IMG/VR virus record: IMGVR_UViG_3300047490_000254
Coordinates: 1 to 58,706 of that record
From: a virus
Direction: 5' to 3' (one strand)
DNA: 58,706 bases
Shown: piece after piece, positions 1 to 24,486 of the stretch
How positions within the stretch are numbered: the first letter of the stretch is position 1
Layout: each line of letters starts with the position of its first letter
Program-made: the position numbers and the translations under genes
The notes under the pieces: model-generated
Told to the model about the DNA's origin: nothing
The model's database searches: none
The model's input: the letters and a program-made list of their open reading frames with translations, nothing else

Positions 1-135
1 CCACTACCGCTTTTACCTGGGTTAGTTCCACTACCGCTTTTACCTGAGTTAGTTCCACTACCGCTTTTACCTGGGTTAGTTCCACTACCGCTTTTACCTG
101 AGTTAGTTCCACTACCGCTTTTACCTGAGTTAGTT
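1..135 (-). repeat. 27-bp tandem repeat, five copies, inside tape measure gene
   Basis: Five exact-length 27-bp units start at 1, 28, 55, 82 and 109 and continue past the left edge. On the minus strand each encodes nine residues, GKSGSGTN followed by P or S. The variable codon differs by one base (CCA or TCA) and reads, from position 1, P, S, P, S, S, hinting at a 54-bp higher-order unit. The array is in frame with the tape measure gene, so it is a flexible Gly/Ser-rich tail of that protein rather than a non-coding satellite. Confidence 0.95.
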
Positions 136-3100
136 GGTGTCGGCTTTTTACCAGTACCAGGTAGTAGAAATTCTATAATCCCAGTCACGCCACCATAAAG
201 TCCACCACTGCGAGGATCAGCATAATCAATTTTAGGTACGTTAACGTTATTAACAAAATTCTTTGTATTAAGGATGACTCGCTTAACGGGTTCAGGGGTA
301 TTCTCTCTTATGAATCCCTTGACCCAATTAATAGCCCGGTTAACGGGTGGTGTAGACGGTGTAGAAGATGTTGCTACCGGCTTTGGCTCTGGCAATAAAC
401 CTAAATTTGTCACAGCCTCGTTTGGCTGATCAAAGAACCTAGCCACTCTCTGGAAAGCATTTAATCTTTTATATTCAATATCCCTAACGACCTTTAATGG
501 GTCCATATTAGAAGAATTGATTTCTGTGCGGAACTTAAAGTTATTCCCTGCTAAATTCCCAATTAACTGCCCAGCGTTGATATTAACTGAACCACCATCA
601 TTGAGTTTCAAATTCTTCTTAACACTGGGAATATTCAACCCTTCATAAATCAGCTTAATAGTACCACCTTTGGTTTGTTTGATAATCTCCAAAGTATTAC
701 CAATAAGCGTAGCCATACCAGTTACAGAAGATTGAATATTGGTATTTTTACCAACCCCAATATTCTGATTAAACCGAATCCCTCCGGTCTTCCCAAAGGA
801 ATCCTCATGTCGGTATTTAGTATTAATGATGTTAGAAAGACTCTTGCCCACAATCGGTGACAAGAAAGCATTATCTGGTAACTTTGGTTTTGGCTTAGTG
901 ACTTGAGAATAAGGAGTATAACCCATACCCATATCTGACATAAGTCCAGCCACTAACATCTCTTTAGTCGCATTAGCTACTGGGGTGGATGTGGGTAGAC
1001 TAGCTTGAGGTATAGATAAAATTGCATTTGGATCGCCACTACCATTAACAGGTACTTGCGTTGCAGGATTTGATGGGTTATTAAATGGTTGCATTGCAGG
1101 ATTTAATGGATTTTTATTTATATCCTGCAAGGTCTTGAGGAGATCCTGTAAAGCTTTATTGAGGTTAATTGTAGAATTAACTGCGCTTACGCCTATGCCA
1201 TTTGCAACATTGTTAATTTCTTTGTTAATACTTGAAACACTCTTGTTAACAGTTCCTAGTTGCTTGTCAAAGTTACGAATCTGATCAAGACTAAAAGGTA
1301 CAATCTTACCCGGTAGACTACGCTGCATTTCCGTGACTTTAATCAGGATGTCCTGTATATTGTTCTCATAGTCTAACTTCTGTTTTTGCCTGTCTAAGCG
1401 TAAGTTCTCAATTTCCGTTAATTGTTGGAACAACCCAATCACACTGTCAATAAAGTTGGTAAAGATATTATTTCCCGCCCCAACCAAAGCCTGTTTCAGC
1501 TTAATAGCAAACTGTTGAGACTTAATGTTATTGGTAGCTTTATCAAACTCAATAGTAGCAGCTTGGGACTCCCTTAAAGATGTCCGATAGTATTCTGCTA
1601 CTTGCTTAGTCTGGTCAATTAACGCTTGTCTAGCTTCTCGTTGCGCCTTAATAATTTCTAAAGTATTTTGGCTTACCTGTTCCTTATCCTTCGCTATTTC
1701 CTGCTGAAGCTTGGTAATTTCCTCTTGTATTTGAGATAAGTTAGTTGGGCTTCCTGCGGCAGCTATTTGGAGTTTCTTTAAGCTATCTTCCTTGATTTTC
1801 AAAGAACGCTCTAATACTTTTTGCTGAAAGGTCAAATCTGCAATCTGTCTGTCAGATAAACCCGGCGCAATTTGCTGAGATGTCAAAGTAGTTCCGTAAA
1901 GTTTAGCTTGTGACTGGTTGGAAACAATCTTATTTTTACTGATGTCTACATTGGACTTAACTTCATTGTCTTTAAGTGCTGCGACCGCCTGAGTGTACAT
2001 TGTGTCAGCTATTGGTGCAATGCTGAACTTTTCCGCTTCTGCTAATGACTTTTCAAGTGTCTCCTGTGTTTTCCTCAATTCCTTTACTGTCACCGTCCTT
2101 TGCTGAGGAAGGATGCTTGAATCAGATAAAGTTTTCTCTATTTCCCTCTTGGTTACTTCCAGCATTTGCTTAATTGCTGGTGTAGGATCGCCAAACTCAT
2201 CAACTAATTTCTGTCTTCGTTTTTGTAGCTGCGCGATACGTTCTTTTGCTAACCCTGCTTTATTGCGTAGCTTGTCATTAGGGCTGACTGCTAATTGATT
2301 ACTAGCTTCAACAAATTCAGCAGCGGTTTTTTCAATGTCAACATCAATTTTCTTAATTGCATCATAGTTAACTCTGCGTTTTGCTGAAGCGTTAATATTT
2401 GTTTGTAAAACGGCTTTTTCTTTTTGTAGTTTCTCTAACTCTTTTGTTAATTCGTCTGCTTTAATGTTACGACCTATACTTGCTCCACCAAATCCGTCTG
2501 TAGTATAAGTATAGTCAAAATTCCTACTATCTTTATAAGAATCTGCTATCTCTTTTTCTTTATCTTTAATCTGCTTATCAATTGCATTCATTCTTGGCTT
2601 ATTGTCATAATTAGCCATAAAAGATATCTGCATCAACAGCTTATCTTTCTCCAATTGAGTAAGCTCTTCTTGGACTGTTTTATACCCTTCTTTGGATCTT
2701 GCTTTTGACTTTTCTGTTTCTGTAGTTCCTACATTTTCTAATCCTTGAAGTGACGCTTTTGTGTCTTCTATACGCTTAGTAATGTTTCGTACAGGGGTCT
2801 CACTTTCAAATTGTTCCTTCTGTTCCTGTGTCATGGGTACAACTGGTCGGGCAACAAAGCTGTAAGGGGTTTTCCCGTCTAAACCAATTGAAGCCATAAA
2901 CTCTTTTAATCTTTGGTTGCTGAGTTGCTGATCTTTGTAAAGCTTAATAACTTGCAAAGATGCAGAATCTAGCCTTTCACCAACTTCCTTAGCGTTAATA
3001 ATCTGTTTAATTTCTTCTGGCAACCCACCTTTTTCTTCTGTGTTGTTTAATTGCGCTTCAGTAATCTTAGGAGCAAACGCATCTAATGCCACTGTAGCCA

Positions 3101-6100
3101 GTCCTATGGCAGCTGCAAAGCCAATAACTGCTAAAGCAATAGGCGCAATAGGTGAAGCAAGCATGGGAGCGATCGCCATAGCAATTCTACCCATCAACGG
3201 AATAGAAATTGCTGCTTTAGCGAGTTGAGCAGCTTTTATTGCAGCTATAGTAGTTTCTGCTGTCGTTATAGCTGTAGCAAATATTTTAGCACCAGTCACG
3301 TAGGCAACCGCAGCACCACCAAGCCCCAAAGCCACCGGACCAAGAACATCCATTGCGCTTGGACCTGCAATTGCACCTGTACTACCTGGTCTGTATTTTG
3401 CGTTAGTATCCCGTACCGCGTCGTCCCATTTGTAATCACCACCACCCCAAAGACTTCTAATATCCAGTTGCACCCCTTTAGCTGGTAAAGCATCAGTGAT
3501 AGTATTACCAAGTTTCTCTACAGATTTAGTAGCTTTATTAAACGCTTCGGTGGTTTGTCCAATATTTAACCTGACTTGATTTAAATGTTTATTAATATCT
3601 GCGGTAGATTTATTAATTGATTCTCGTAATGGGTCGCTAAAATCACCTTTAGAAAACATCAGAACAGCGTAAGCTAGTCCAAAATGTAACAGTGCTTTAC
3701 TCAAAAATCCTAATGCACCTTGAACTATTGCTGTGCTTCTTACGCCACTTGCTGCAACATTATTAGTTGCGTTTGAAGCAACCGCTGAAGATGTCATCAT
3801 TAATTCAATAACGCTTTTGATAGTTCCCATTACCCCATAAAATGCTTTTGCTGTAGCACCAAATATTCCAGTAATGCCGCCCCACAGTTTTGTGATGGCA
3901 GGCCACAAAGCCATAACCATGAGACCTGTTCCTTGCTCTAGCATAAATACTATAGCTAGTATCTCTACAATCCCGGAGGGAAGAATTTTAAAGAAACCTG
4001 CAAACACCCCTTTAAGCCAGTCTATGATACTACCAGCTTGTTCTGCCCCTTGGATTAACCCACCAAAGAGAGAAGAAAAACTAACTTTGTTGTCACTCAT
4101 GGAACGCATGGCAGTGTCTATAGTGCTGAACACAGTGACAATCATGTTATTTATACCTTGAAACATATTGTCCAAGAGATTTCTTTCTGCACCTAACCAA
4201 CCATCAGCAACGTCTGAGACAATACCAACAACCATTGGCATCATATTGGTAGTAATAGCTGAAAAAGTAGCCAATAAGAAGCTTTGTAAACTACCTATGG
4301 CGACTCGTAAAGGTCCAAATTTAGAAAGAATGATTGTTAGTCCAATAGAAATTGTGGCTGCAAAGCCAATCATAAATGACTGGACTAATGGTATCATTTC
4401 TTTTAATGCACCGCTAAGTACGCCTAAAATATTAGCAAAAGTGTTAACAAAAAATGCTAGTGTGCCACCAATCTTATCAGTAAATATCGTTGTAATCTCA
4501 AAGCCCACATTACCTAATCTGTTCAGCGCAACTACCAGCCCCCCAGCTTGATCGGCGGCAGCACTACCATAATCTTCTTTTAATACTTTAGCTACTTTAG
4601 GTAAAATATCTTGGGATAAAATGCCACCAGACGCTACCAGTTCATTCATTTCAGGAATAGTCACACCCATAGCTTTAGCAAACGTAGCCATAGCAGGTGG
4701 GAACTTCTCACCTAATTGCTGTCTAAGTTCTTCCATAGACAATTTGCCTTTAGCCAATATCTGCGTATATGCCATGAAGACTAAACTAGCGTCTTGTCCA
4801 TTAATACCTAACGCGCTTAAAGATGAAGTGATACCTTCAAATAGTTCCTTAACCCCTTGACCTTCCATCTTGCTGTCTTTAGCAGCGATCGCTAGTTGAG
4901 AATAGGAGTTAGCAGCTACTTCTGAAGGTACGTTTAGTTTGGTGGCAATATCTTTTGCGTAATTAAATTCCGCTTTTCCGCCTTCTTTTGATCCGCCTAA
5001 AAACTTAAATCTTCTCTGTAGCACTTCTACCCTTTGAATGCCATCTATTAGTTTAGCCACATGAGGTGCAACCATATTTACAGCCATACCTATACCTGTG
5101 ATAATTGGGGCTAAAGGTAATAGCAATGGTGTAATTGCACCTATCATAGTGGTAATTGGTGCTAAAGTGGTGGTTATTGAACCCACAAACTGAAGGATAT
5201 TGGGGAATATCTCGTCGCCTTCCTTGGGATCTTTAAAGATCAAGTTCTTTACTCCAGATCCCATTTGGTTGTACATTTCTGCAAATTGACCTTGAGTGGC
5301 CACTGTACCCCTGAACATACGACGGAATATTAAACCTACAGAATCACCAAAATTAGCTTGTCCCATGACTTTTTTGGCATTGTATTCCAAGTCATCTTTC
5401 GCGTTAGCTAGATTTACCATTGAGTCTTTCAAGCCCTTAGCCAAAGCTTTACCCATGTCAAAGCCTTTTTCCCTGAACTTAGCCTGTAGTCCAGACAAAG
5501 TAGTCATTAATCCTGCGGTAGCTGTGTCTAAAAGCTTGGGGTCAATGTTGTTGACTTGCTTGGCAGACATCCCGGTTTTTCTTAATCCTTGCTTGACCAG
5601 TTCTTTCATAGCATCCTGGTCGTTACTAGCATAAGCTTCTGTGAGTCTACCCATAAATCCGCCTGTACGAGGATTGTCTCTCAAGTTGTCAGCAAAACTA
5701 CTTAATCCTTGTCCACCCTGTGATTGTTGAATCTGTTTTCTTTCAGCGCGACTCATCCCACGTTCTTGCAAAACAGACATTACCATAGCATCCCGTTTTC
5801 TTGTGGCTACATCATTTCCCATCGTTGCTGCATGAGATTCAAAATCACCCATAAACTTCAGAAGTTTACGCTCTCTAGCGGTTAAATCAATTGGGGATTT
5901 AGTTATTTTTTCACGGGATGCGGCTAATTGTTCTGGTGTCATGGCATTACGCACAGATTCAGTGACACCACGCTCTCTTAATATTTGTTTAGTGAGTCCA
6001 TCGGCTCTTTTTCCAAGATCCGTTCTACCTGATTGAACAGTTTTTTCTAATAATTGTTCAGCCTTGCTTTTTTCAACTCCAAACGCATTAATAGCATCTG

Positions 6101-9100
6101 CTATTGTTGCCGATCTTTCTCTTAGTTTTTTACCAATCATTCCTTGAATTACAGACTTAGGAATAACAGGAATATCAAGGTTGTTTAAAACACTGTTTAG
6201 TAAAGTATTTCCTAAGTTTTCTACTAGTTCTTTACTAGCAATACTGGCACTAGAAGTGCGTGGCTGAACTGTTTGTGTAGCAGTAGGCTGTTTTGTAATT
6301 GTAGGCAGGTTCTTTATTAAATCATCACCAACATTGAGTAGTGCGTATGCACCTGAATTTCGTATATTTTCAATATCCTGATCACTTTTCCCCCGTTCTT
6401 TAAGGATAGAGATAATCCTTTTCTCTTGTTCTTTTAGCGTAGCAGCATTAGCTTTTTTCATGTCTGCTGTGTACAAGAGAAAGTCACGTTCTTTACTGGT
6501 AGCGTTAAGAGGATTCTTGAGTATATTTTCCCGTTCAGTAAGTAACTCAGCAGAGTCCATTCGATTACGAACAAAACTACTTACACCACGCTCTCTTAAT
6601 GCCTTCCTGGTAAGTTCATCTAATTTTGGTATTGCTTTACCAGATTCAACAGCCCGTTTTAATAATTCTTCTGTTTTGGTTCTTTGGGCATCTGGATAAG
6701 CAGCAAGATTTTGTCCCACCCCTGCGTTGACACTGGCACTAGTACCAGTTTCTTTAACATCACGCAAAAGAGCTTTTTCTCTATTGATTTTAGTCTGGTC
6801 TTGTAATACTTTTTCAATAGTAGGAGCTTGTTTTTTGGGGTTGGGCTTCACTGATTTATCTAGTCCCAAGATACCACTAAAAGCATCATAAAACGGGCTT
6901 GCGCTTGATATCCCTAGTGTCAGCAATGGATTAAATTGTGAACCGACCAGCAGAGGTACTGGACTTACAATATTTTTTAAAAACCCTGTAACACCAGCAG
7001 TTTTGGTTCCTGATAAAGCTGATAAATCTACCCTAGTAATAGAACTCAATAAGTTTGTTAAAAAACCACCTTCTTTCAAAATATTGTTTTCTAATAAATT
7101 CTTAACAATTGAATTACCAAACCTTAATACCATACCACCAACAAAAGGTATGGCAAAACTTAATTTAGGAAGTAGTTGAAAACTGCGAGGTATAAATTTT
7201 AAGAACCAAGGCAATATACTCCTGGTTTGAGACAATAAAGCTTGATGCAGTGGTTGTTTAAGCGTATCCGCTAAAGAAAACAAAGCTGCGTTAACGGCAT
7301 TCCGCATGACTTGACCCAATGAAGCATAACCAGACAAAGTGCTTTGACGGATACTTGTACTAACAGCATTAAAAATATTTGTCACCAAATCAGTACCTAA
7401 GTTTAAATACTGGTTTAATAACGTAGGTGGCAAAGGTCGTACAGGGTTTAAATTGGGGTTGTTGCTTATACTTGGGGCTGAACTTGTATTTGGAGTTGGG
7501 TTAACAGGGACTGTGTATGCCGGTACAGTAGTTCCAAGAATTTGAGGTGGCAAAACATATTTTGGCGTAGCAGTACCAGCAGGTTGGGGAATAAAGGATG
7601 GTACAGTAGACGAAAGTGTAATAGGTATTTGTCCAGTAGGTAATTTACCAGCTTGTTTAAATGCTTGGGTAGAACGCGATGATGTTAGCCAAAAGTCGGG
7701 TATTGGTCTATATTGCCCAGTCATTTGCTTGCTCAATTGCTTGACTGCTTGCGTAGGCAAAGGTGGTGTAGTCCAAGGATCTGGTATGGGTGCAAAACGA
7801 GAAGAGACGGTTACTTTATTCCCAGCAATAATAGCTTGTATTTGTTTATTAGCAGCAATTAAAGCACTTATACTATTTTGTTCTAGTGAATGAGTTGATC
7901 TTATGGCTGGCGACAACCCTTGGACGACTGGTAAAATCAACTGTGCATCAGGCTTAGGCGTAAACTTTTGAGATGAGACTATTTGTGCATTTAGGTTAGG
8001 CGCAAAGTTCCTACTAAAAAGTATCTGTGCATCAGGCTTAGGCGTAAACTTTTGAGATGAGATTATCTGTGCATTTGGATTGAGTACAAAGTTTTTACTG
8101 GAAAGTATCTGTGCGTTGGGATAAGGATCAGCGATCGCATTCCTAATGTCTTCTGCCATGTTTCTAGCAGCATTAACAGCGGTCTGGGCTTGGTTGTTAA
8201 TACCAATAGCATGGGAACTGGCGTAATTTTCCCCAGTATCAATACCTTCACCTGATGGTGACGCTATTCTAAATACCTTTTTAACCGCGCTTAGTATGCC
8301 TTTAGCAAACTTGGTGACTATTCCTAGTACACCACCATTTGCAGACATAAATCCTTGTGCAAAAGAAGATATTAAGTTGCCCCCTATTTCTTTGAAGTTA
8401 AATCCACTACCAAATAAATCCTTAACTTTATTTATTTTGTCACCAATACCTTCACTACCAAATAAATCCTTAACTTTATTTATTTTGTCACCAATACCTT
8501 CAATACTTGGATTATTCGCTTTAAACTGATTTAACAAAATATTATGTAACCGAGATTGCATATCGCTATCGCCTCTCACCCCTGCCATTCTATGAGCAGA
8601 AATCAAAGACAATACGCTTTCTTTTGTCATATCATTATTTGGATTTTCAAGCTTATCGTATATATCTTCTGCTACCAGCCTATTTTTGTAATCGCCAGAT
8701 TTTTCTTGCTGATCAAGTTGTTGATAATACTCTTCATATTGTTTGTTTAGTTGACTAGAAACAGGATCAAAAATATTATCAAATACCTTCTTAAACTTAC
8801 TGCCTTCTCCAAAATCTTTTTTGACTGCTGAAACAAGGCTTTTAATGCCTCCTTCATCACTTGACTGAGTGGCTTTAATATATTTTGATATCTCTGGATG
8901 TTCCAAGAATGATTTTAAGTTTGGATTACCTTTAATGCTTTTAGATTTTAAATAAGGGTTTGTTGCTAAATCAATAAGATTATCAAATTCGTCTTTATTT
9001 AAATTATGGGTTTGAATATAAGGTGATCCACCTATCACAGATGAATGAACGGAATGCCCTAACTGAAAATCGTGCTTTTCTTTATTCAAAAAAGAAAATA

Positions 9101-12100
9101 GTTCTCGCCCAGTATTGGTGTCATACTTGGAATAAGCTTTTGAACCACCAAAATCAGTAGACTCTAACCCCAGCAAGTTAACTAGCCACTGGTTTTTATC
9201 AAGCATTGAATATATTTTTTTACCGAAATTATTAGGCAAACTAAATGGAGTATTTTTGTCAGTTTCTTCACTATTGTGCCAGTCATAGACATCATTAATC
9301 TGTAATCCACCGTCTTTAGTTTGGGTGTAATTAAATCCGCCTAATGTATGTGCAAGGGTAGGTAAGTTTTCATGCTTAACCATATTCACAAAGCCACCAT
9401 CAGGTAAATAGCCTTCTTTTTCCGCAGCTTGCATCATATTAAAAATGGTAGCAATCTCTGCCTCTCGCGCTAAAGCAGAATTAAGTTTATGTACTTGTGC
9501 TGTTCCTTGATAGAAAGCCCCTAAATGTCTTAAAGGCGTTTCAATATTTTTGGGTGTCAATCCTGAATTAGCTAAACCCATCATAATAGTTCCAATCATA
9601 GAACCAAACGCAGTAGGCTTACTTATTCCTTTGGACTCATCGTAAACTTTTTGGGTTAATTCAGAATTTGGACTAGATGCGTTTAAAGTTGCTTCCTGAA
9701 AAGCCTCAATATTTTGTGACGGCAAAGATTGCAAGGACTTCATCTTGTTGATTACCATGTCCGTTAATTCATCAGTGGCACTGGAAACATCAATAACACC
9801 TTTTTTAATCCCTATAGCCAACCCTGACGCTATCATTAAGCCCAATGCTATCATCACTTTCGATGGTGAACTGATACCCATATTCTGCTTAATCCGGGAT
9901 TGGATTGAATTACCAGCATTGTCCATAACTTTAGTAACACTTCCAATACTGTCCGCCATTCCTTTACCCAGTCCTTTCATAATATTTCCGCCTATGGACG
10001 TAAATGGCTTGGAAGAAGTATTATCAGAGGCTATAGCAGCACTACTAACATTTCTTGAGTCAGATTTACTTATTGGTTGCTGACTAGGTAAATGACCCAT
10101 ATTCTTTTTAACTTGATTACTTACAGCATTAGTACTAGCACTCACAACTTTAGATGAAGCTGCAACGGTATTAATAAGACTTCTATTAATGTTTTCAACT
10201 ACGTTGCCACTCATGCGAGCAAAAGCATTTAAGGAAACGCTGTGTTTGTCCCCAAAGCTACCAATGGCATCAGCTACTTGAGTGGGTGCGCCTAAATCAG
10301 TAATTGATTCCGCGATCGCCTGTTGATGAGTTGCACCTTTAGCAGCCTTTGTTACAATATTCCTATATAAATCTCTGGGAATAGTCAAAGCATCTATGCC
10401 ATCAGCAAATACCGTCCCTGCGGTTTCAGTAACGGAATTAGCTGCTGTACCAAAACCAGTAGGAACTACTTTTAATGCACTACCAATAGCTTTGATAATC
10501 TCAGGTTTAGTTAACTTTAAATCTTTTAATTTCTCCGTGAGAACCGCTTTATAAGCAGCCATGTAATCAAGAGACGGATCTTTTGCTAACCTGGTCTTAG
10601 TTTCCCCATGGGATTGGGCTACCGCTTTTCCTATTGCACCACTTCTTAAAAGTGCTGTCATACCAGACTGAGCCGCATCAAAAGCAGTAAATGAGCTTAC
10701 ACCGAAAGTAGCTGCACCTGCTTTACTTAAATTAATAAAATGATCAAATGCTTCTCTAGGCTTAGTAAGTGTCTTGTCAGCCCTTAGTTCAGCAACAAAA
10801 TCTTTTCCAGACTCAAACGCAGACTGAAATAATGTTTGTTCTGGGTTAGCAGCGTGTCGTTCTCCTACTTTGTCAAGCATCTTTAGCCCAGAATCAGATG
10901 CAGCTAATCCTACACTCCCATAAGTGGCCGCAGTAGACATACCCGGTATAAGACCACCAACAGCCAATGCTGGCTCAAGAATTTCTTTAGCTGAACCCAC
11001 AGCATCTTTAACGGTGCTTACAAGCTGTCTAGCCCCTACCGCAACTTTGCTGTTCCCTTTTTGCATCCCAAGAAACAGCCCAGAAGCTATCATCATCCCA
11101 ATCTCAAACATCACCAAAGATGGAGACTGGATTTTCATCTTAGCTTCAACAGTTTCAATCAAGTCATCAAGCATCTGTCTAGCAGTATCAGACACGCCAT
11201 CAGAGCCATGCTTAACACCTTTTGCTAATCCTGCGTCAATATCAATACCTAATTGTTGAGCCAAGGGTGCATAGTAAGCAAGCTGCTTATCAAAAATACT
11301 TTTTTCTTCTGTGTTTAGCTTACCTATTGCCTCATTAGCCCTTTTAGCATTAGCACTTACAGGAGATTTACCTCCAGCATGAACTTTGCTAAGATCACTG
11401 TTAATTTTTTTATCAAAACCAGCATCTTCGGCTTGTTTAACAATATTATCTATATCTTTTATTGCAGAATTACTAGTTAATATAAACTTTTTAAGTTTTT
11501 CTTTCGTGGCTTTAATTTCTGCTGGAGTTCCTGTTTTTTTAGTCTGGTCAACTTCAATTTTTAGCTTTTTATATTCTTCACTAAAATAATTGTTAATAGC
11601 TTTAAAAGAGGCTTTAACATTTTCTAAAGATATTTCTTTTTGTACTTTTATTTCGTCTGATTTTTTGGACTTTCCTATTTCCAATGGCACTAATTCTTCA
11701 CCATTCTCTCTAGCAGTTGCTTCAACATACTGCTTAGACAAATCAATATTTTTTAATGTATTAGTTTTTATGGTTTCAAAGTGCTGTTTTAGTTGCTGTG
11801 GTACTTGACTAGCAGTAGTTTCAATAGGCACTAATTCAAGTTCTGGTTGTGGTTTTTTGGATTTTCTAGGAATATTTACAGGAATATTTAATGGCTGCTC
11901 TACAGGCGATTGTATTGCTTGTGTTACCACAGGAGCAGCTATTAAATTAATAGCAGATATAGAATTATTTAATGTATTGACTGCATTGTTCAATGACTGA
12001 GCGGCGTTTTCTAAACTAATTGCAGCCTGACTTAATCCTGAATCGGTAGAAACGGTACTTACATTGGCTATGTACTCATTTAATCCTTTTGTGGCACTTT

Positions 12101-13613
12101 CTAAGTTGCTGGCAGCTTGTTTGAGTTCTGATTCAGGGGTGACAGGAATAGGCTTGGGTTTTGGAGTATTTATAGTCCCAGTTTTCAAAAACTCACTAAC
12201 AACACCATAAGTATTCGGTAGTATAGTTTTTGTTGTTGACTTTACAGATTGTTTTGCAAAACTAACTATTTGAGAGCCAATTTTTCCGCCAAGAGACCCA
12301 GAGCCATCTCCCGTTCCCTCTAAAGAATTAAATACACCATTAACTGCATTTTGTATCTTTGCAGAGGAATTAGCAAGAATATTCTGAGATCCTTTCCGCA
12401 CTGCGCCGATAGTAGCACTTTTAACTCTTTGGGCTGTGTTTTCAAGTGATTGCTCAATTTCAGTCACAAATTGATTGTTAATTTCAGTCAAGAACTGACT
12501 AGCAGCAGATGGTTTTACTGGTGTTTGTGTCTCTACATAATCATCAACCATCCCTCTTAAAATTGCCTCTACTCGCTTTTGTTCGTTTTTAGGATCTGAT
12601 TGGGCTTTTTTACCTATACCAAAATAACGCAACAAGCCTTTGGCGGCAACCTGTCCAGTAGCTTCAAAATCTACATCAACATCATTGGCGACTTTGGGTG
12701 GATTATATGCTTTTTTTCTACTTCTTTTGGTGCTACCAACAGCATTAGAATTGCTTGTACCTTGATACCATGCAGCGCGGTGATCGTGCGCTACAACAAA
12801 AGCATCAATTCCATCTTTAAGAATAGCTTCTACTCGCTTCTGTTCATTTTTAGGATCTGATTGCGCTTTCTTACCTACACCAAAATAACGCAACATCATG
12901 TTACTAGTTATCCTAGTCATAGTTGGAATATCAACACCAACAGCATCCTCAATACCTCTATTAATCCCATCAGTAAAACCTTTACCAAGTCCTCCAAATA
13001 TCCCGTCCATAATAGCTCTACCTGGATTAACCACCATGTCTACTTTTTGGACTTTATTTGGCGATGAAGCTTCTTTAGCTGTTTGTTGTTGAGCCGTTAC
13101 TGAAGCTTGTTCTGACATTTCTTCTTTAACAGCATTTTTAACAGCATCAGCTAAACTTTTTTCTAGTTGCTTACTTAAATCAGATTCAACAGTAATAGTA
13201 ATAGTTCTACTAGAAAGCCCGCCTAATCTTTCTTCTAATTCATCAAGACTTTTGGTATCGGTATTAACTTTAATTGGATTGCTATCAAAATACTTATTAA
13301 CTTGTTTAAGGTGCTGTACTTTTAAATTTAAGTGTTCATTCAAATCAGTCAAGCTACTATCATCAACATTGACAACAATAGGATTATTATTAAAATACTT
13401 ATTAACTTCTTTAAGATGTTGTACTTTTAAATTTAAGTGCTTATTTAAATTGACTAAGCTATCATCGTCCACTCCGACATTAAGATTAATATTTTCAAAG
13501 CTTTTTTCTACCGACACAGCCGCTTCATAAGCCTTCTTCTTAGCCCGTTCCAAAGTCTTTTCTAGCTCAGAAGAATCAGCAGATAACTCTACAATTAATT
13601 CGCCTAAATTCAT
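1..13613 (-). CDS. Giant tail tape measure protein (3' end outside window)
   Basis: The frame starting at the ATG at 13613 (AGGAG eight bases upstream) stays open for 4537 codons and leaves the window. A tape-measure N-terminal-type domain (TIGR02675-like) lies at about residues 2860-3020, with the typical sequence KGKLSMEELRQQLGEKFPPA. Also visible are hydrophobic Gly/Ala-rich stretches (about 3420-3510), long coiled coils (about 3640-4140), a degenerate M23/LytM-like domain (about 4245-4362) and GKSGSGTN repeats at the end. Short modules are duplicated internally, for example YFG[VI]GKKAQSDPKNEQ twice, EGIGDKINKVKDLFG twice and RERGV-type units several times. The family sets tail length during assembly and is ejected into the cell envelope with the DNA. 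It is the last gene seen in the late operon. Identity is firm; the total length is unknown. Confidence 0.93.
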   Translation of the reverse strand, partial: MNLGELIVELSADSSELEKTLERAKKKAYEAAVSVEKSFENINLNVGVDDDSLVNLNKHLNLKVQHLKEVNKYFNNNPIVVNVDDSSLTDLNEHLNLKVQHLKQVNKYFDSNPIKVNTDTKSLDELEERLGGLSSRTITITVESDLSKQLEKSLADAVKNAVKEEMSEQASVTAQQQTAKEASSPNKVQKVDMVVNPGRAIMDGIFGGLGKGFTDGINRGIEDAVGVDIPTMTRITSNMMLRYFGVGKKAQSDPKNEQKRVEAILKDGIDAFVVAHDHRAAWYQGTSNSNAVGSTKRSRKKAYNPPKVANDVDVDFEATGQVAAKGLLRYFGIGKKAQSDPKNEQKRVEAILRGMVDDYVETQTPVKPSAASQFLTEINNQFVTEIEQSLENTAQRVKSATIGAVRKGSQNILANSSAKIQNAVNGVFNSLEGTGDGSGSLGGKIGSQIVSFAKQSVKSTTKTILPNTYGVVSEFLKTGTINTPKPKPIPVTPESELKQAASNLESATKGLNEYIANVSTVSTDSGLSQAAISLENAAQSLNNAVNTLNNSISAINLIAAPVVTQAIQSPVEQPLNIPVNIPRKSKKPQPELELVPIETTASQVPQQLKQHFETIKTNTLKNIDLSKQYVEATARENGEELVPLEIGKSKKSDEIKVQKEISLENVKASFKAINNYFSEEYKKLKIEVDQTKKTGTPAEIKATKEKLKKFILTSNSAIKDIDNIVKQAEDAGFDKKINSDLSKVHAGGKSPVSANAKRANEAIGKLNTEEKSIFDKQLAYYAPLAQQLGIDIDAGLAKGVKHGSDGVSDTARQMLDDLIETVEAKMKIQSPSLVMFEIGMMIASGLFLGMQKGNSKVAVGARQLVSTVKDAVGSAKEILEPALAVGGLIPGMSTAATYGSVGLAASDSGLKMLDKVGERHAANPEQTLFQSAFESGKDFVAELRADKTLTKPREAFDHFINLSKAGAATFGVSSFTAFDAAQSGMTALLRSGAIGKAVAQSHGETKTRLAKDPSLDYMAAYKAVLTEKLKDLKLTKPEIIKAIGSALKVVPTGFGTAANSVTETAGTVFADGIDALTIPRDLYRNIVTKAAKGATHQQAIAESITDLGAPTQVADAIGSFGDKHSVSLNAFARMSGNVVENINRSLINTVAASSKVVSASTNAVSNQVKKNMGHLPSQQPISKSDSRNVSSAAIASDNTSSKPFTSIGGNIMKGLGKGMADSIGSVTKVMDNAGNSIQSRIKQNMGISSPSKVMIALGLMIASGLAIGIKKGVIDVSSATDELTDMVINKMKSLQSLPSQNIEAFQEATLNASSPNSELTQKVYDESKGISKPTAFGSMIGTIMMGLANSGLTPKNIETPLRHLGAFYQGTAQVHKLNSALAREAEIATIFNMMQAAEKEGYLPDGGFVNMVKHENLPTLAHTLGGFNYTQTKDGGLQINDVYDWHNSEETDKNTPFSLPNNFGKKIYSMLDKNQWLVNLLGLESTDFGGSKAYSKYDTNTGRELFSFLNKEKHDFQLGHSVHSSVIGGSPYIQTHNLNKDEFDNLIDLATNPYLKSKSIKGNPNLKSFLEHPEISKYIKATQSSDEGGIKSLVSAVKKDFGEGSKFKKVFDNIFDPVSSQLNKQYEEYYQQLDQQEKSGDYKNRLVAEDIYDKLENPNNDMTKESVLSLISAHRMAGVRGDSDMQSRLHNILLNQFKANNPSIEGIGDKINKVKDLFGSEGIGDKINKVKDLFGSGFNFKEIGGNLISSFAQGFMSANGGVLGIVTKFAKGILSAVKKVFRIASPSGEGIDTGENYASSHAIGINNQAQTAVNAARNMAEDIRNAIADPYPNAQILSSKNFVLNPNAQIISSQKFTPKPDAQILFSRNFAPNLNAQIVSSQKFTPKPDAQLILPVVQGLSPAIRSTHSLEQNSISALIAANKQIQAIIAGNKVTVSSRFAPIPDPWTTPPLPTQAVKQLSKQMTGQYRPIPDFWLTSSRSTQAFKQAGKLPTGQIPITLSSTVPSFIPQPAGTATPKYVLPPQILGTTVPAYTVPVNPTPNTSSAPSISNNPNLNPVRPLPPTLLNQYLNLGTDLVTNIFNAVSTSIRQSTLSGYASLGQVMRNAVNAALFSLADTLKQPLHQALLSQTRSILPWFLKFIPRSFQLLPKLSFAIPFVGGMVLRFGNSIVKNLLENNILKEGGFLTNLLSSITRVDLSALSGTKTAGVTGFLKNIVSPVPLLVGSQFNPLLTLGISSASPFYDAFSGILGLDKSVKPNPKKQAPTIEKVLQDQTKINREKALLRDVKETGTSASVNAGVGQNLAAYPDAQRTKTEELLKRAVESGKAIPKLDELTRKALRERGVSSFVRNRMDSAELLTERENILKNPLNATSKERDFLLYTADMKKANAATLKEQEKRIISILKERGKSDQDIENIRNSGAYALLNVGDDLIKNLPTITKQPTATQTVQPRTSSASIASKELVENLGNTLLNSVLNNLDIPVIPKSVIQGMIGKKLRERSATIADAINAFGVEKSKAEQLLEKTVQSGRTDLGKRADGLTKQILRERGVTESVRNAMTPEQLAASREKITKSPIDLTARERKLLKFMGDFESHAATMGNDVATRKRDAMVMSVLQERGMSRAERKQIQQSQGGQGLSSFADNLRDNPRTGGFMGRLTEAYASNDQDAMKELVKQGLRKTGMSAKQVNNIDPKLLDTATAGLMTTLSGLQAKFREKGFDMGKALAKGLKDSMVNLANAKDDLEYNAKKVMGQANFGDSVGLIFRRMFRGTVATQGQFAEMYNQMGSGVKNLIFKDPKEGDEIFPNILQFVGSITTTLAPITTMIGAITPLLLPLAPIITGIGMAVNMVAPHVAKLIDGIQRVEVLQRRFKFLGGSKEGGKAEFNYAKDIATKLNVPSEVAANSYSQLAIAAKDSKMEGQGVKELFEGITSSLSALGINGQDASLVFMAYTQILAKGKLSMEELRQQLGEKFPPAMATFAKAMGVTIPEMNELVASGGILSQDILPKVAKVLKEDYGSAAADQAGGLVVALNRLGNVGFEITTIFTDKIGGTLAFFVNTFANILGVLSGALKEMIPLVQSFMIGFAATISIGLTIILSKFGPLRVAIGSLQSFLLATFSAITTNMMPMVVGIVSDVADGWLGAERNLLDNMFQGINNMIVTVFSTIDTAMRSMSDNKVSFSSLFGGLIQGAEQAGSIIDWLKGVFAGFFKILPSGIVEILAIVFMLEQGTGLMVMALWPAITKLWGGITGIFGATAKAFYGVMGTIKSVIELMMTSSAVASNATNNVAASGVRSTAIVQGALGFLSKALLHFGLAYAVLMFSKGDFSDPLRESINKSTADINKHLNQVRLNIGQTTEAFNKATKSVEKLGNTITDALPAKGVQLDIRSLWGGGDYKWDDAVRDTNAKYRPGSTGAIAGPSAMDVLGPVALGLGGAAVAYVTGAKIFATAITTAETTIAAIKAAQLAKAAISIPLMGRIAMAIAPMLASPIAPIALAVIGFAAAIGLATVALDAFAPKITEAQLNNTEEKGGLPEEIKQIINAKEVGERLDSASLQVIKLYKDQQLSNQRLKEFMASIGLDGKTPYSFVARPVVPMTQEQKEQFESETPVRNITKRIEDTKASLQGLENVGTTETEKSKARSKEGYKTVQEELTQLEKDKLLMQISFMANYDNKPRMNAIDKQIKDKEKEIADSYKDSRNFDYTYTTDGFGGASIGRNIKADELTKELEKLQKEKAVLQTNINASAKRRVNYDAIKKIDVDIEKTAAEFVEASNQLAVSPNDKLRNKAGLAKERIAQLQKRRQKLVDEFGDPTPAIKQMLEVTKREIEKTLSDSSILPQQRTVTVKELRKTQETLEKSLAEAEKFSIAPIADTMYTQAVAALKDNEVKSNVDISKNKIVSNQSQAKLYGTTLTSQQIAPGLSDRQIADLTFQQKVLERSLKIKEDSLKKLQIAAAGSPTNLSQIQEEITKLQQEIAKDKEQVSQNTLEIIKAQREARQALIDQTKQVAEYYRTSLRESQAATIEFDKATNNIKSQQFAIKLKQALVGAGNNIFTNFIDSVIGLFQQLTEIENLRLDRQKQKLDYENNIQDILIKVTEMQRSLPGKIVPFSLDQIRNFDKQLGTVNKSVSSINKEINNVANGIGVSAVNSTINLNKALQDLLKTLQDINKNPLNPAMQPFNNPSNPATQVPVNGSGDPNAILSIPQASLPTSTPVANATKEMLVAGLMSDMGMGYTPYSQVTKPKPKLPDNAFLSPIVGKSLSNIINTKYRHEDSFGKTGGIRFNQNIGVGKNTNIQSSVTGMATLIGNTLEIIKQTKGGTIKLIYEGLNIPSVKKNLKLNDGGSVNINAGQLIGNLAGNNFKFRTEINSSNMDPLKVVRDIEYKRLNAFQRVARFFDQPNEAVTNLGLLPEPKPVATSSTPSTPPVNRAINWVKGFIRENTPEPVKRVILNTKNFVNNVNVPKIDYADPRSGGLYGGVTGIIEFLLPGTGKKPTPTNSGKSGSGTNSGKSGSGTNPGKSGSGTNSGKSGSGTNPGKSGS

Positions 13614-13637: not shown

Positions 13638-13668
13638 GATTACAGATTAAGAATATTAATCTGTAATC
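13638..13668 (-). terminator. Terminator-like hairpin between tail chaperone and tape measure genes
   Basis: Perfect 13-bp arms GATTACAGATTAA and TTAATCTGTAATC enclose five bases. On the minus strand the hairpin is followed by TTTTTCTTT and then by the tape measure RBS. It overlaps the stop codon of the frameshifted chaperone. It looks like an intrinsic terminator or attenuator that would lower tape measure transcription relative to upstream genes. Confidence 0.7.
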
Positions 13669-14065
13669 AAGAAAGTAGCAGATTCAAAGCTGATAAAACC
13701 GGAGGGGGCAACCGATTGTTCTTGATAATATCCTTAACAATGTTTTCCGTTGCTTGGCTAATCTTGCGGGTATCACCTCTAATATCGTCAGGAAAGGGTA
13801 GCAAATCAATAAAGTCCATATTGGGGTCATTTTCTTTTTTGAACCCGTTAAACAGTCCCGTCCAACCGATCGCATGAACCCGTCCCTCAACATTAGCCTG
13901 TTCCCTCCGGTGTTGTTCAAGTGCCTCAATGCACTCAAATACTACGTGAATGGGTTGATCTAAGAAACTATCCCAGTCTCTAAATCTGGGGTCAGAAACT
14001 CGGTAGGACTGGATTCGCCAGTAGATACTTCCCCAGTCAACTGAGGAACTGGTAGCTGCTCCCCC
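13667..14065 (-). CDS. Tail assembly chaperone, -1 frameshift extension (GT-type)
   Basis: This frame opens right after a TGA at 14068-14066 and runs 132 codons to TGA 13669-13667. Its first ATG lies far downstream and it has no ATG, GTG or TTG near its beginning, so independent initiation is unlikely. The product reads like a real protein: DWGSIYWRIQSYRVSDPRF, then Trp- and Phe-containing helical sequence. It overlaps the 3' end of the upstream chaperone frame in the -1 register, as lambda G and GT do. Slipping at the G-run 14065-14061 would give a fusion of about 385 residues. The family bridges the tape measure protein and tail tube subunits during assembly. The role is known from the family; the site is inferred. 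Confidence 0.8.
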   Translation of the reverse strand, partial: GGAATSSSVDWGSIYWRIQSYRVSDPRFRDWDSFLDQPIHVVFECIEALEQHRREQANVEGRVHAIGWTGLFNGFKKENDPNMDFIDLLPFPDDIRGDTRKISQATENIVKDIIKNNRLPPPVLSALNLLLS

Positions 14066-14823
14066 TCAGTCACAGGTGCAGGTGCTGATTCTGGTTCTAC
14101 TTTCCACCGACTACGCTCGTTCTCATAGAATTTGTAAATAGCAGATACAAATTCATCACTACAGTCTTTAGTGTCTTCTTCTGACCACTCATCCGTACCA
14201 ACTACGTAAGACTTAGTTGAGTTGTTGTATAAGAAACCAACGGTCATGGGTAGATTTTCAGATACAGGTTGAATCCTGATAATTGAATCTGTATCTGAAG
14301 GTTGATAGTTGCCCAACACAGTGACTAAACAATCGCCGAAGCGAATTATTTGTCCATCCTGTAATGGAAAGTGGGTTGAAGCAACGGAAATACTTGTGGA
14401 ATTAAAAGGTACTGATGATGTAAGTTCCACTGGGAAAGCTACCCGTTTTTTAATGAATAGAGTAGCCACAGCAATAGACACAGAAGCATTGTAAATGGAA
14501 CTCAAAGCTTCTAATTCAGTGAAGTCTTCAATGTAGTCGTAGATAACATCAGAATTATCAACTTCAGTTGCACCATCAGCAGACCGAGTAGGAGAAAGTA
14601 ATTCTTGGGCTTCTGCAATTGTGACACCACGATCAACAGAAATCTTTTTAACCAGCTTAGACGCAATAATGGCTGCTTTTTGACGTTTAGCATCAATGCT
14701 ATCAATATCTCTAGCTTCACCAACACTCAAAGAACCGCGTTTTTCTAAATAGATAATCCCAGTAGACTCATTACCCACAGGGATAACTTCATACTTGGCT
14801 TTTTTGTTAATTATTGGGCGCAT
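13960..14823 (-). CDS. Tail assembly chaperone (G-type), unshifted product
   Basis: A 287-residue soluble protein located between the tail tube protein and the tape measure protein, the conserved place for the tail assembly chaperone. The N-terminal two thirds are mixed alpha/beta (sequence such as VGEARDIDSIDAKRQ). The last 40 residues are Pro/Glu/Thr-rich and lie in the overlap with the -1 frame, which suggests a weakly constrained tail of the short product. The start overlaps the end of the upstream 79-residue gene. Longer than lambda gpG; assigned from position and the frameshift arrangement rather than a strong motif. Confidence 0.72.
   Translation of the reverse strand: MRPIINKKAKYEVIPVGNESTGIIYLEKRGSLSVGEARDIDSIDAKRQKAAIIASKLVKKISVDRGVTIAEAQELLSPTRSADGATEVDNSDVIYDYIEDFTELEALSSIYNASVSIAVATLFIKKRVAFPVELTSSVPFNSTSISVASTHFPLQDGQIIRFGDCLVTVLGNYQPSDTDSIIRIQPVSENLPMTVGFLYNNSTKSYVVGTDEWSEEDTKDCSDEFVSAIYKFYENERSRWKVEPESAPAPVTEGEQLPVPQLTGEVSTGESSPTEFLTPDLETGIVS
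14061..14070 (-). promoter_or_regulatory. Candidate -1 ribosomal slippery site
   Basis: The minus strand reads ACT GAG GGG GAG in the chaperone frame, giving a run of five G at 14065-14061. The -1 frame becomes open exactly at this run. GGG re-pairs perfectly after a one-base backward slip. It is the first run in the overlap that permits slippage and lies upstream of the conserved-looking -1 sequence. It is not the classic lambda GGGAAAG heptamer, so the exact codon is inferred. Confidence 0.55.
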
Positions 14824-15050
14824 AATTCAATCTCTAAATTGTCTTGGGAATCTGCCAAAAGTTGATAAGTTGCTACCTGTTTAACGGAATCAGGAATCTT
14901 GACTTGGTAAGAGGAGTAGCGATCAGAAACGGTAATTTGCCCTGACAATCCTCCTCTAAAAACTGCCGCACCGCATAGCAACCTATCTTCATCAATGCGG
15001 CAGTTAATGAGGACAGCTAATAACCCAGTGCTATCCTTGAGAATTTTCAT
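14811..15050 (-). CDS. Small tail-region protein, unknown
   Basis: 79 residues, acidic C-terminus, beta-rich look (GGLSGQITVSDRYSSYQV). The ATG overlaps the stop of the tail tube gene (TAATG), and its own end overlaps the chaperone start, so translation is probably coupled. Position between tail tube and chaperone suggests a tail accessory protein. No family recognised. Confidence 0.7.
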   Translation of the reverse strand: MKILKDSTGLLAVLINCRIDEDRLLCGAAVFRGGLSGQITVSDRYSSYQVKIPDSVKQVATYQLLADSQDNLEIELCAQ

Positions 15051-15808
15051 TACAAGTTATAAACAGGGAATCCGGTACTAGAACCACCAGAAGCATAATA
15101 AGCAGGAGTCCAGGATATTTCATCTTGAAACTCTAACGTGAAAGTATATTTCAAGACTTCCATCTGTGTTGCTGGCATAGTCAAAGCCGTTACTTTAGAT
15201 GCACCTTCCAGTCTTGCGCCGTTGGGATAAGTAGCGATCGCGTACAATTCCCTGTTCATAAATACAGGGTCAAAAAAGGTACGTTTAATAAATTGTTCTA
15301 AAGCAATATCACCAACGTATTCAATGCCTTCCACAGTAAGTTCTCTTTTGGTGCGGACAATAGCAGAACTAGTACCACTACCAGACTGAGCGTGAGTAGT
15401 GTCTACTACAGTGGGACTAAGTTGAGGACCAAGGTTGGTAATCCCTAGTACAGGAAACATATCCTGAACTAATCTAGCGGTAGAGTTGGCCGGAATAGCA
15501 TCCAAAAGAGGTGCGACCGTTAAAGACACTGCGGTAGTACCAGCTAAAGTAGCATTAGACAATACTAGTATTTGATGGCGGATTAAAGGATTAGTAGGTG
15601 CAACAAAAGACAAAGAAGTACCAGCGGCAATAGTATAAGTGACACCAGTAGTAGCACTAACACTAATATTAGTAGCACCCTCTAAAGCACCAGCAGTACA
15701 AGTTAAAGTAGTGGTAGTAACTGCACGGGTGTTTTCTGGTAACATTTTAACATCAAGAGCAAAGTTTTGAAGAATTACGGTTTGGACTGGACGATTAGCT
15801 AAAGCCAT
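15050..15808 (-). CDS. Major tail tube protein (probable)
   Basis: 252 residues. It lies upstream of the tail chaperone and tape measure genes, where siphoviruses encode the tail tube subunit. The central part (about 35-115) is Thr/Ala/Val-rich and resembles an inserted Ig-like or adhesion-type beta domain. The C-terminal part (VLKYTFTLEFQDEISWTPAY) fits a tube-type beta-barrel. The start has a clear AGGAG at 15818. Tube identity is inferred from position and size. Confidence 0.65.
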   Translation of the reverse strand: MALANRPVQTVILQNFALDVKMLPENTRAVTTTTLTCTAGALEGATNISVSATTGVTYTIAAGTSLSFVAPTNPLIRHQILVLSNATLAGTTAVSLTVAPLLDAIPANSTARLVQDMFPVLGITNLGPQLSPTVVDTTHAQSGSGTSSAIVRTKRELTVEGIEYVGDIALEQFIKRTFFDPVFMNRELYAIATYPNGARLEGASKVTALTMPATQMEVLKYTFTLEFQDEISWTPAYYASGGSSTGFPVYNL

Positions 15809-16461: not shown

Positions 16462-16488
16462 AATTTTTAAGTGATTGTTATGTGACTG

Positions 16489-16543
16489 TTATGTGACTAT
16501 AAAGTCAAAAATGACAACTTTGCTTTGTTTTGGTAAGTCAGAA
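16489..16543 (-). pseudogene. Duplicated 3' fragment of the downstream-listed tail completion gene
   Basis: A 55-bp stretch duplicates, with substitutions, the last 55 bp of the neighbouring gene (16553-16607), including its stop codon. Translated in the same register it gives SDLPKQSKVVIFDFIVT, against SDILEQSRIVIFDPIVT at the real C-terminus. A further partial TTATGTGACT lies at about 16478. It has no start and is too short to be a gene: a relic of a tandem duplication or an imprecise recombination event. Confidence 0.8.
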
Positions 16544-16552
16544 TAGTCACCG

Positions 16553-16921
16553 TTATGTGACTATAGGGTCAAAAATGACAATCCTGCTTTGTTCTAGTAT
16601 ATCAGAAGTAGCAGGAATGTGTGTATACCTTAAAACAGGTAAACGTCTCTCTATCTTAGCGATCGCCGTTGGTAAATTAGAATTTTTTACCCAATTACGC
16701 AGTAGAATTTCCCATTGTTGAGGCTTATATCTTGACCCAGCGCTGGTAGCTTTAGCCGCAACATTAGGGGTTTCCTTAATCAAACATTCAAGCCCGTTAC
16801 TTGCAGATGGTGGTTGAGATGAACTACCGTATACCCAGATTGAAGGCAACCCATTAGTATAAGTACCCAACTCAGTAGCTAGTAACGTTGCCAGAATTTT
16901 TCTGAGGTCAATTGCCTTCAT
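16553..16921 (-). CDS. Tail completion/terminator-like protein
   Basis: 122 residues, order in operon: after the HK97-gp10-like neck protein and before the tail proteins, where the tail terminator (lambda gpU-like) is usual. The sequence WEILLRNW and TAIAKIERRLP fits the mixed alpha/beta fold of that group. The start overlaps the end of the previous gene by 14 bp. Its 3' end is duplicated in the adjacent intergenic space. The call is positional. Confidence 0.55.
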   Translation of the reverse strand: MKAIDLRKILATLLATELGTYTNGLPSIWVYGSSSQPPSASNGLECLIKETPNVAAKATSAGSRYKPQQWEILLRNWVKNSNLPTAIAKIERRLPVLRYTHIPATSDILEQSRIVIFDPIVT

Positions 16922-20266: not shown

Positions 20267-21427
20267 TTAATCTATAATTGGTTTAGATTGACCTAAAGAT
20301 TGAATAATCTGTAAAGCCCGTGTTTCTAAATCAGCAGGATTAGACTGACCAGCATTGACAATAGGCTCAGAAATTGACTGCTTTAAGTTAAGTAAAGGTG
20401 CGGTTCTCTTATTGATTAATTCAAGATGAAACTCAATATAACCCAAGCGATCGCTCTTGGTATGATGGGCAATATCGCTACTAGGTGTTTCAGAGAATAA
20501 ATCCCCAAATTCAACAGCAGACAACTTACCTTCGGACACCAAATCTTCAGCTTTTTGACGTAAATCATAATAGCGAGATACCACTGATTCACGCTTTTCA
20601 AAAGTAGAAATAGCAGTGTTTTTTTCCTCAATAGACTTGCTTAAAACTTTGATTTGTTCACTCAGTCTATTGTTTTCATTGGTTAACAAAACCTGCTTTT
20701 CAGACAATAAAACATTAGTATTATTAGCTTCTGCTAAAGCGGTTTTAATTGCAGTTAACTCCAATTTAGTTGTAGTTAACTCCAGTTCAGTTTTTTCATT
20801 CATTTTTCGATTGGGGTTGAAATTGGGATCTCCTTTAACTGAAATATCGTCAAAACATACAAAAGACTTTCCGTATCCAACTGTTGGGTCCGCTGGTATG
20901 TCTTCAGAAGATATTTCCAATAGAACTATCTTTGTCGCTTCTAAGAGGGCTTTCTTTGTCAGCATAACGCAACCATCCTTATCAGTAGCGTACTCTGCTG
21001 GGGTAATAACACGGTATTCCTCTACGGTATACCCAAAGCTGATACCTCCAGAAGTACCATCTTCTATGTCAGACATGAATTGCTCTGCTAAACCGTTTCT
21101 AGACAGCTTCACAGTTGCCATGCCGCGATCGCCGTCCAAACCGACTTCAGTAACAATGCCGATTTTTTGACCACGTGCATGATTTTTGAGAAAAGGACAA
21201 GTTTTATTAGTAACCCTTGTCAAGTCCCAGCTACGAGCATCGTGGGATAATTGTTCATCAAAAACGACACTAGCACCTTCAGGTAAATCACCATAGAGAG
21301 AATATCTTTCACAGATATTACTCTTAGAAGAAAACGAGAATCCTAGAGTTCTTGCATCCCGATTTAATAGCAAATCAGAACTTAAAACCTTAGTTAAGAT
21401 AGTTTTATTTTTAGTTGTATTTGGCAT
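20267..21427 (-). CDS. Prohead protease fused to scaffold domain
   Basis: 386 residues. The protease part (about 1-200) carries the two HK97-protease landmarks: His in FLKNHARGQKIGIV and Ser in TSGGISFGYTVEEY. About residues 210-290 form a long coiled coil (ELELTTTKLELTAIKTALAE), the scaffold domain that templates the procapsid and is then digested. The C-terminal delta-like tail ends QIIQSLGQSKPIID. Single-gene fusions of this kind are common. It is the first gene of the leftward late operon. No strong SD is seen. Confidence 0.88.
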   Translation of the reverse strand: MPNTTKNKTILTKVLSSDLLLNRDARTLGFSFSSKSNICERYSLYGDLPEGASVVFDEQLSHDARSWDLTRVTNKTCPFLKNHARGQKIGIVTEVGLDGDRGMATVKLSRNGLAEQFMSDIEDGTSGGISFGYTVEEYRVITPAEYATDKDGCVMLTKKALLEATKIVLLEISSEDIPADPTVGYGKSFVCFDDISVKGDPNFNPNRKMNEKTELELTTTKLELTAIKTALAEANNTNVLLSEKQVLLTNENNRLSEQIKVLSKSIEEKNTAISTFEKRESVVSRYYDLRQKAEDLVSEGKLSAVEFGDLFSETPSSDIAHHTKSDRLGYIEFHLELINKRTAPLLNLKQSISEPIVNAGQSNPADLETRALQIIQSLGQSKPIID

Positions 21428-21457
21428 AACTAAAACATTTAAAACTGCTTTTATTTT

Positions 21458-21517
21458 AACCGTTAAGCTAATTATTTGACTTAATTAAATCTGCGAAAAA
21501 AGCGAGAATTAACGGTT
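21458..21517. promoter_or_regulatory. Divergent control region with inverted repeat
   Basis: Between the late operon (minus) and the XRE-type regulator (plus) lies an inverted repeat AACCGTTAA (21458-21466) and TTAACGGTT (21509-21517), 42 bp apart. It is a plausible operator for the adjacent regulator, controlling both directions. A -10-like TATATT is at about 21526. No proof of binding. Confidence 0.5.
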
Positions 21518-21562
21518 TTCTTTGATATATTATTAGTGGTGTAAATAATTAATATAACAGTC

Positions 21563-21829
21563 ATGATTGTAGAACCAAATAGCTTTGAAACCTTGTCCAC
21601 AGAAGGGAAAATAGGAATCTTAATTTATATAGCTCGTGAAAAAGCGGGAATGTCCAGGAAACAACTAGCAGCAAAAATTGATAAATCAGTGAACGTCATT
21701 ATTGCCATAGAAGATTTATTCAAAGGACAGGACGGCAGAAGACAAACCATATCATTTAGTGAGATTGAATCAATTGCCAATGCCTTAAATCTCCCTATTC
21801 AATCCTTACTCCCAAAAAACGTATATTGA
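21563..21829 (+). CDS. XRE-family helix-turn-helix regulator
   Basis: 88 residues. A lambda-repressor-like HTH is clear at about 22-75: AREKAGMSRKQLAAKIDKS for the first helices, a recognition helix NVIIAIEDLFKG, and ESIANALNLPIQSLL closing the domain. No dimerisation or cleavage domain follows, so it is a small DNA-binding regulator. It is divergent from the late operon across an inverted repeat, suggesting a Cro/CI-like or late-switch role. That role is inferred. Confidence 0.85.
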   Translation: MIVEPNSFETLSTEGKIGILIYIAREKAGMSRKQLAAKIDKSVNVIIAIEDLFKGQDGRRQTISFSEIESIANALNLPIQSLLPKNVY

Positions 21830-21831
21830 AA

Positions 21832-22016: not shown

Positions 22017-22043
22017 TCCGCTGTAACCCTTAAACGTACAGCA

Positions 22044-22262: not shown

Positions 22263-22336
22263 AAACTTAGGTAAATGACATTAATCTACCTAAACACAAT
22301 TAAAAATATTTTATTTCACTGAAAATAGCAGAAGTA

Positions 22337-24472: not shown

Positions 24473-24486
24473 TGCATATAAAAATC

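Follow-up and report, generated by a model that had tools for sequence, protein, structure and literature searches.

A tape measure protein of near-record size from a probable cyanophage fragment, and candidate ruler alleles among its relatives

Tail length and the size of the tape measure protein (TMP) have been reported together for several long-tailed phages: Thermus phage P23-45 with a tail of >800 nm and a TMP of 5,002 aa (PMC9022992), Katyusha with 500 nm and a TMP gene of 9,084 bp (PMC4919401), Tsamsa with 440 nm and 3,123 aa (PMC3903500), Mic1 with 400 nm and 2,572 aa (PMC7156551), and CL131 with 361 nm and 2,131 aa (PMC6293099). Across these five pairs the ratio is 0.141-0.169 nm per residue, with a regression slope of 0.157 and an intercept of 2 nm, which bears out the 0.15 nm per residue on which the first-pass annotation of the DNA studied here had relied. 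The rule is also fitted by phiCbK, with 300 nm and 1,964 aa, and by Colossus, with 336 nm and 2,155 aa (PMC3556154). In mycobacteriophage TM4, removing a 114-aa hydrolase motif from within the TMP made the tail ~20 nm shorter, where 17 nm had been expected (PMC1796659); embedded domains can thus count as tape. The rule can also fail, since tails of 200, 357 and 420 nm were reported for Basilisk-like phages with TMPs of equal length (PMC6145125).

The stretch analysed here (58,706 bases), referred to as the window, corresponds to an entire IMG/VR record. Neither terminal redundancy nor terminal repeats were found in it, and hence it is a fragment. The TMP gp64 of the isolate CrV-01T (Cylindrospermopsis raciborskii virus, MH636380) resembles the window TMP in its start region, its SPS-type motifs, the presence of a TMP_3 domain (at ~1974) and a similar C-terminal length. 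However, identity is only 22-43% in matched segments, and the N-terminal part of gp64 is ~890 aa shorter. Its chaperone homologue (MH636380 28426-29226) is separated by ~28 kb from the TMP gene (57277-70527), while the two are adjacent in the window. Cylindrospermopsis phage Cr-LKS4 (OQ625504) shares homologous TMP_3 and C-terminal parts, but its TMP comprises 2,987 aa with an N-terminal part of only ~1,000 aa.

The reading frame and its neighbourhood

The features that identify the gene are the following.

3-13613 (-): TMP open reading frame, residues 1-4537, 3' end missing (ORF and TMP families)
4509-5036 (-): TMP_3/tape_meas_nterm domain, residues 2860-3035 (PF20155, E 1.1e-25; TIGR02675, E 2.7e-14)
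1-135 (-): tandem array of 27 bp x 5, in frame, 9-residue repeat of GKSGSGT type; the contig ends inside it
13667-14067 (-): GT extension frame, -1 relative to G and overlapping it; open, 67-98% identity in relatives
13960-14823 (-): G-type protein, presumed tail assembly chaperone, 287 aa; relatives conserve it immediately before the TMP
14059-14065 (-): putative slip site G.GGG.GAG; -1 register in 9/9 relatives checked
15050-15808 (-): possible major tail (tube) protein, on weak matches only (PF06199, E 0.06; phrog_820, E 0.02)
24460-25959 (+): terminase large subunit (PF03237, E 1e-29)

The frame opens with an ATG at 13613, preceded by a GGAG ribosome site, and passes through 4,537 codons with 0 stops to the contig edge, where it is still open, just as had been claimed for a TMP of at least 4537 residues running off the window. 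A stop-free run of this length has a chance probability of ~1e-145, computed from the base composition of the gene, and the codon-position GC of 48/39/28% is the pattern of a real gene. The start, MNLGELIVEL, is common to relatives. By sequence comparison the ORF is a tape measure protein: TMP_3 (PF20155) scores 90.9 bits against a cut-off of 41 and TIGR02675 53.2 bits against 21.35, matches to several PHROG tape measure families have E-values of 2.7e-35 to 1.4e-7, and the PDB tape measure chains 8vjh, 9ndy and 9cuy were matched by phmmer through the TMP_3 region. Together with the upstream G/GT pair, these matches confirm the original assignment. The position of TMP_3 is unusually distant from the N-terminus.

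The G gene and the GT extension lie directly upstream of the TMP in 24 of the 24 IMG/VR loci that show this stretch, an arrangement which normally precedes tape measure genes and has been described for phiCbK (PMC3556154). Remote homologues of the G-type protein occur in CrV and Cr-LKS4. The overlap of G and GT begins at an invariant GGGGGAG in register X XXY YYZ (9/9 relatives checked). It would be a P-site slip sequence, not a textbook XXXYYYZ heptamer; the frameshift, like the chaperone role of the G/GT proteins, is presumed.

The fragment is of freshwater origin and probably derives from a virus of filamentous cyanobacteria. Among the matches listed, its tail genes are closest to Cylindrospermopsis phages, whereas its terminase is not. 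A search of 84,980 genomes for prophages or hosts, with the C-terminal part and the chaperone as queries, returned none, so that the host assignment is drawn from the CrV/Cr-LKS4 homology only. No integrase turned up in the ORFs that were scanned; given this result and the lack of a prophage relative in the genome search, the induced particles mentioned in the first-pass annotation are not implied.

Several further features of the window were recorded. An IS605 OrfB/TnpB-type gene (PF01385, PF07282) is located at 31824-33395 (+), and annotated transposase genes are also present in CrV, Cr-LKS4, CL131 and Mic1. Inverted repeats of ~205 bp, 74% identical, lie at 27037-27241 and 58430-58634, one of them near the right contig end. 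Genes for two DNA methylases, of C5 and N4/N6 type, and for two antirepressor-type proteins (pRha and BRO-N) occupy 28752-29795, 41984-42925, 41175-41948 and 43080-43865. Tandem repeats of 11 bp and 64 bp are placed between two head/tail genes at 16467-16607.

Anatomy of the tape measure protein

Within the TMP, five further elements were delimited.

13263-13472 (-): two 105-nt (35-residue) repeats near the N-terminus; relatives share the 35-residue period
6315-12797 (-): variable N-terminal block, residues ~273-2433 (approximate), exchanged between relatives and differing in length
8739-9806 (-): insert, residues 1270-1625, with an alpha/beta core predicted at ~1374-1580 (alignment and model)
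1116-3065 (-): long stretch of tape-like helices, residues 3517-4166 (84% helix as modelled)
459-896 (-): degenerate M23-like (LytM/SpoIIQ-like) domain, residues 4240-4385 (profile against SpoIIQ, E 0.0014; beta fold in the model)

SPS...G...GL..GI motifs occur at residues 830 and 1249, in stretches matching C-terminal parts of other TMP profiles, and residues ~1830-2150 are rich in proline. For the alpha/beta insert (residues 1270-1625), no relative in Pfam, PHROG or PDB and no known fold was found; a UBX match fell below the cut-off and was taken as chance. At the place of this insert, the relatives L005, L007, L011, L018 and L019 carry a HEMFH segment (in L007 at 14558-15190), which is HExxH metallopeptidase-like and weakly SprT-like. 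In this family, a ruler protein harbours exchangeable enzyme-like inserts.

In the model of the C-terminal region, the helical stretch of residues 3517-4166 is followed by a disordered, proline-rich stretch and then by a small beta domain (~4280-4385), which falls into the M23-like region. SpoIIQ is itself a degenerate M23 protein. A Pfam M23 match in the relative L013 reaches E 3e-4, yet stays below the Pfam cut-off. The M23 zinc ligand motifs HxxxD and HxH are absent in the window and in the L004, L007, L018 and L022 types, while L013 keeps HNKVD but reads HHLDF at the second motif. Since the metal ligands are missing, the window copy is probably inactive, judged from its residues. In the L013 TMP (21323-22330), the M23-like domain is succeeded by a segment that weakly resembles YkuD (L,D-transpeptidase) and bears an SSGCI motif.

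Two segments were modelled with AlphaFold, from input alignments without rows from public phage records, and show 61% and 67% helix, the second at low confidence; the model of the N-terminal segment has a pLDDT of 43. Neither model found a significant match in Foldseek, which was to be expected of long helices and of a model with low confidence. The two segments include a disordered proline-rich stretch, a beta-type M23-like domain and the alpha/beta insert, so that the helical tape on which the first-pass annotation made its tail estimate conditional is not the whole of the protein.

Relatives, completed length and block exchange

Relatives were collected in one IMG/VR scan, which yielded 28 loci; these records lack end repeats and are probably fragments. 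The complete IMG/VR relatives comprise seven distinct TMPs of 4,448-6,228 aa, listed here with the isolate.

L007: TMP 6,228 aa; TMP_3 start 3,634; 2,419 aa after TMP_3
L018: TMP 6,123 aa; TMP_3 start 3,641; 2,307 aa after TMP_3
L011: TMP 5,846 aa; TMP_3 start 3,334; 2,337 aa after TMP_3
L022: TMP 5,772 aa; TMP_3 start 3,252; 2,345 aa after TMP_3
L013 = L016: TMP 5,050 aa; TMP_3 start 2,414 (L013); 2,461 aa after TMP_3 (L013)
L004: TMP 4,505 aa; TMP_3 start 1,975; 2,355 aa after TMP_3
L025: TMP 4,448 aa; TMP_3 start 2,158; 2,115 aa after TMP_3
CrV-01T (isolate): TMP 4,416 aa; TMP_3 start 1,974; 2,267 aa after TMP_3

The part after TMP_3 is nearly constant among the relatives (2,115-2,461 aa), and the part before it varies from ~1,970 to ~3,640 aa. 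On the same anchoring, TMP_3 of the window starts at 2,861. With ~2,860 aa before TMP_3 and the C-terminal part of the long-type relatives, the finished window TMP would comprise about 5,340-5,500 aa; the estimate from aligning it directly with L004 and L007 is about 5,380-5,440 aa. Its C-terminus is expected to read like SQTVQALVSDGIRRE. No near-identical contig was available to finish the gene, as the last unique stretch has no exact match in IMG/VR. At ~5,400 residues when completed from relatives, the protein is among the largest known tail-length rulers. The first-pass annotation had held that few phages approach this size. The protein is indeed in the size class of Thermus P23-45, but it does not stand alone: a 4,416-aa relative is known from the isolate CrV-01T, and some metagenomic relatives outgrow the Thermus protein.

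Tandem repeats were rejected as the main cause of lengthening, as they account for only 0-332 aa per protein, and so were added SPS modules, with 1-2 motifs in every complete IMG/VR relative, whatever its length. In L029 (7448-13840), the frame continues beyond a single in-frame stop and resembles L030; the stop is either a nonsense allele or a sequencing error.

Comparison of closely related loci locates the differences within the TMP gene. Between L014 and L007, identity is 99.2% across 10,548 bp, a stretch that reaches 548 nt into the TMP gene; past this breakpoint the two diverge, and L014 matches L004 at 96.7%. Upstream, L004 and L007 share 95-97% identity, and their final 2.7 kb are 95% identical, yet their TMPs differ by 1,723 aa. 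For L011 and L022, identity reaches 97.7% upstream and 99% downstream, and the N-terminal blocks that lie between fail to align at >=85%. The window itself shows 92-94% identity with the L004/L007 group across the 10 kb upstream. Rulers of 4,505 or 6,228 aa, with block-exchanged N-terminal halves, are thus carried by phages with 95-99% identical flanks. As the L007-type allele was recovered from three independent samples, the exchanges are unlikely to be assembly accidents. A large survey of mosaicism in phage proteins confirmed no genuine recent case in tape measure proteins (PMC10684548); L014/L007/L004 and L011/L022, with their sharp breakpoints, look like such recent mosaicism.

These loci may represent natural ruler alleles within one phage species, in which 95-99% identical head and tail-tube genes are combined with TMPs differing by up to ~1,720 aa through N-terminal block exchange, and the same tube is built to ~710 or ~985 nm; at ~985 nm, a tail would rank with the longest known. 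We regard this proposal as evenly poised between right and wrong. Nearly identical phages with very different rulers constitute a natural experiment, more useful than the identity of the TMP. It would let one ask whether every part of the TMP, inserted enzyme-like segments included, acts as ruler, and what use cyanophages would have for tails of nearly a micron.

Tail length, competing explanations and known systems

Our preferred reading, to which we assign a probability of roughly 0.75, is that the ORF encodes the TMP of a phage with a long tail, probably a siphovirus that infects filamentous cyanobacteria and is related to CrV-01T and Cr-LKS4; the TMP would have a finished length of ~5,340-5,500 aa and an N-terminal block that sets tail length. 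By the standard mechanism, G and its frameshifted GT product would coat the nascent TMP, the C-terminal part would dock on the tail tip, tube subunits would polymerise along the protein until it is covered, and the TMP would exit through the tail tip at infection. From TMP_3 onward, the protein is nearly constant in this family (about 2,300-2,600 aa, TMP_3 included), while the N-terminal part (~2,860 aa in the window), presumably proximal to the head, has grown and is exchanged in blocks. It is this division into a constant C-terminal and a variable, block-exchanged N-terminal part which suggests that the N-terminal block would set tail length. The inserted and degenerate enzyme-like segments would be threaded as tape. 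By the ratios of the published pairs, the visible part of the window TMP predicts a tail of 640-770 nm and the completed protein one of about 750-930 nm; the corresponding predictions are 880-1,050 nm for L007 (6,228 aa) and 640-760 nm for L004. Points that weigh against the preferred reading are the pLDDT of 43 in the N-terminal model, the proline content of residues ~1830-2150, the unequal tails of Basilisk-like phages, the open 3' end of the window gene and the probably fragmentary records of its IMG/VR relatives.

A different use of the N-terminal half would change these figures. It could be exchangeable cargo, i.e., a processed or folded injection or effector region attached to a normal C-terminal TMP of ~2,300-2,600 aa, and tails would then measure ~350-450 nm whatever the full length. 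The constancy of the C-terminal part and inserts such as the alpha/beta domain and the HExxH segments speak for cargo, as does the position of TMP_3, which normally lies nearer the N-terminus (the phrog_339 match starts at profile position 66) and is found here at 2,860. However, the sampled N-terminal segment is predicted to be mostly helical with little beta structure, the tube lumen of ~4 nm offers little room for folded domains (PMC9022992), the embedded enzyme motif of TM4 counted as tape (PMC1796659), and no processing site was identified in the TMP. We therefore consider cargo unlikely, and keep the full-length ruler as the preferred reading.

Two other explanations carry far less weight. 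That the protein is the ruler of a contractile, myovirus-type tail is suggested by TMP_3 relatives in myoviruses (vB_PaeM phages were matched), but it is very improbable, as the tail sheath family PF04984 is absent in all 11 related records including the window (the records being fragments), and the nearest isolates, Cr-LKS4-6, were described with long non-contractile tails (PMC12507012). Still harder to credit is an open frame produced by misassembly or chimerism. The metagenomic contig does terminate in a tandem array, the gene contains internal repeats, and the frame of one relative, L029, is broken by a stop behind codon 2130. Nevertheless, the array is likely the reason why assembly stopped; collinear relatives are known from many samples, three independent ones (L005, L006+L021, L007) yielded the L007 type with 99-100% amino-acid identity, and the isolate CrV-01T carries a 4,416-aa homologue. 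The window frame is collinear with relatives from independent assemblies and hence not a chimeric read-through, so that an artefact is already largely refuted.

Among known systems, Thermus phage P23-45 is similar in scale: P23p96 is a very long protein of 5,002 aa from a phage with a tail >800 nm, and a metallopeptidase domain is annotated in it (PMC9022992). No Thermus phage homologue of the window TMP appeared among the matches listed, and P23p96 is shorter than the longest relatives of the window protein (6,228 aa). Mycobacteriophage TM4 likewise embeds a peptidoglycan-enzyme-like segment in its ruler; the TM4 motif is active (PMC1796659), whereas the M23-like domain of the window lacks the conserved ligands. 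The identity of the window TMP is ordinary and its size at the edge of what is known, exceeded by its own relatives (6,228 aa against 5,002 in P23-45). It is a known kind of protein of near-record size, with candidate natural ruler alleles in its family.
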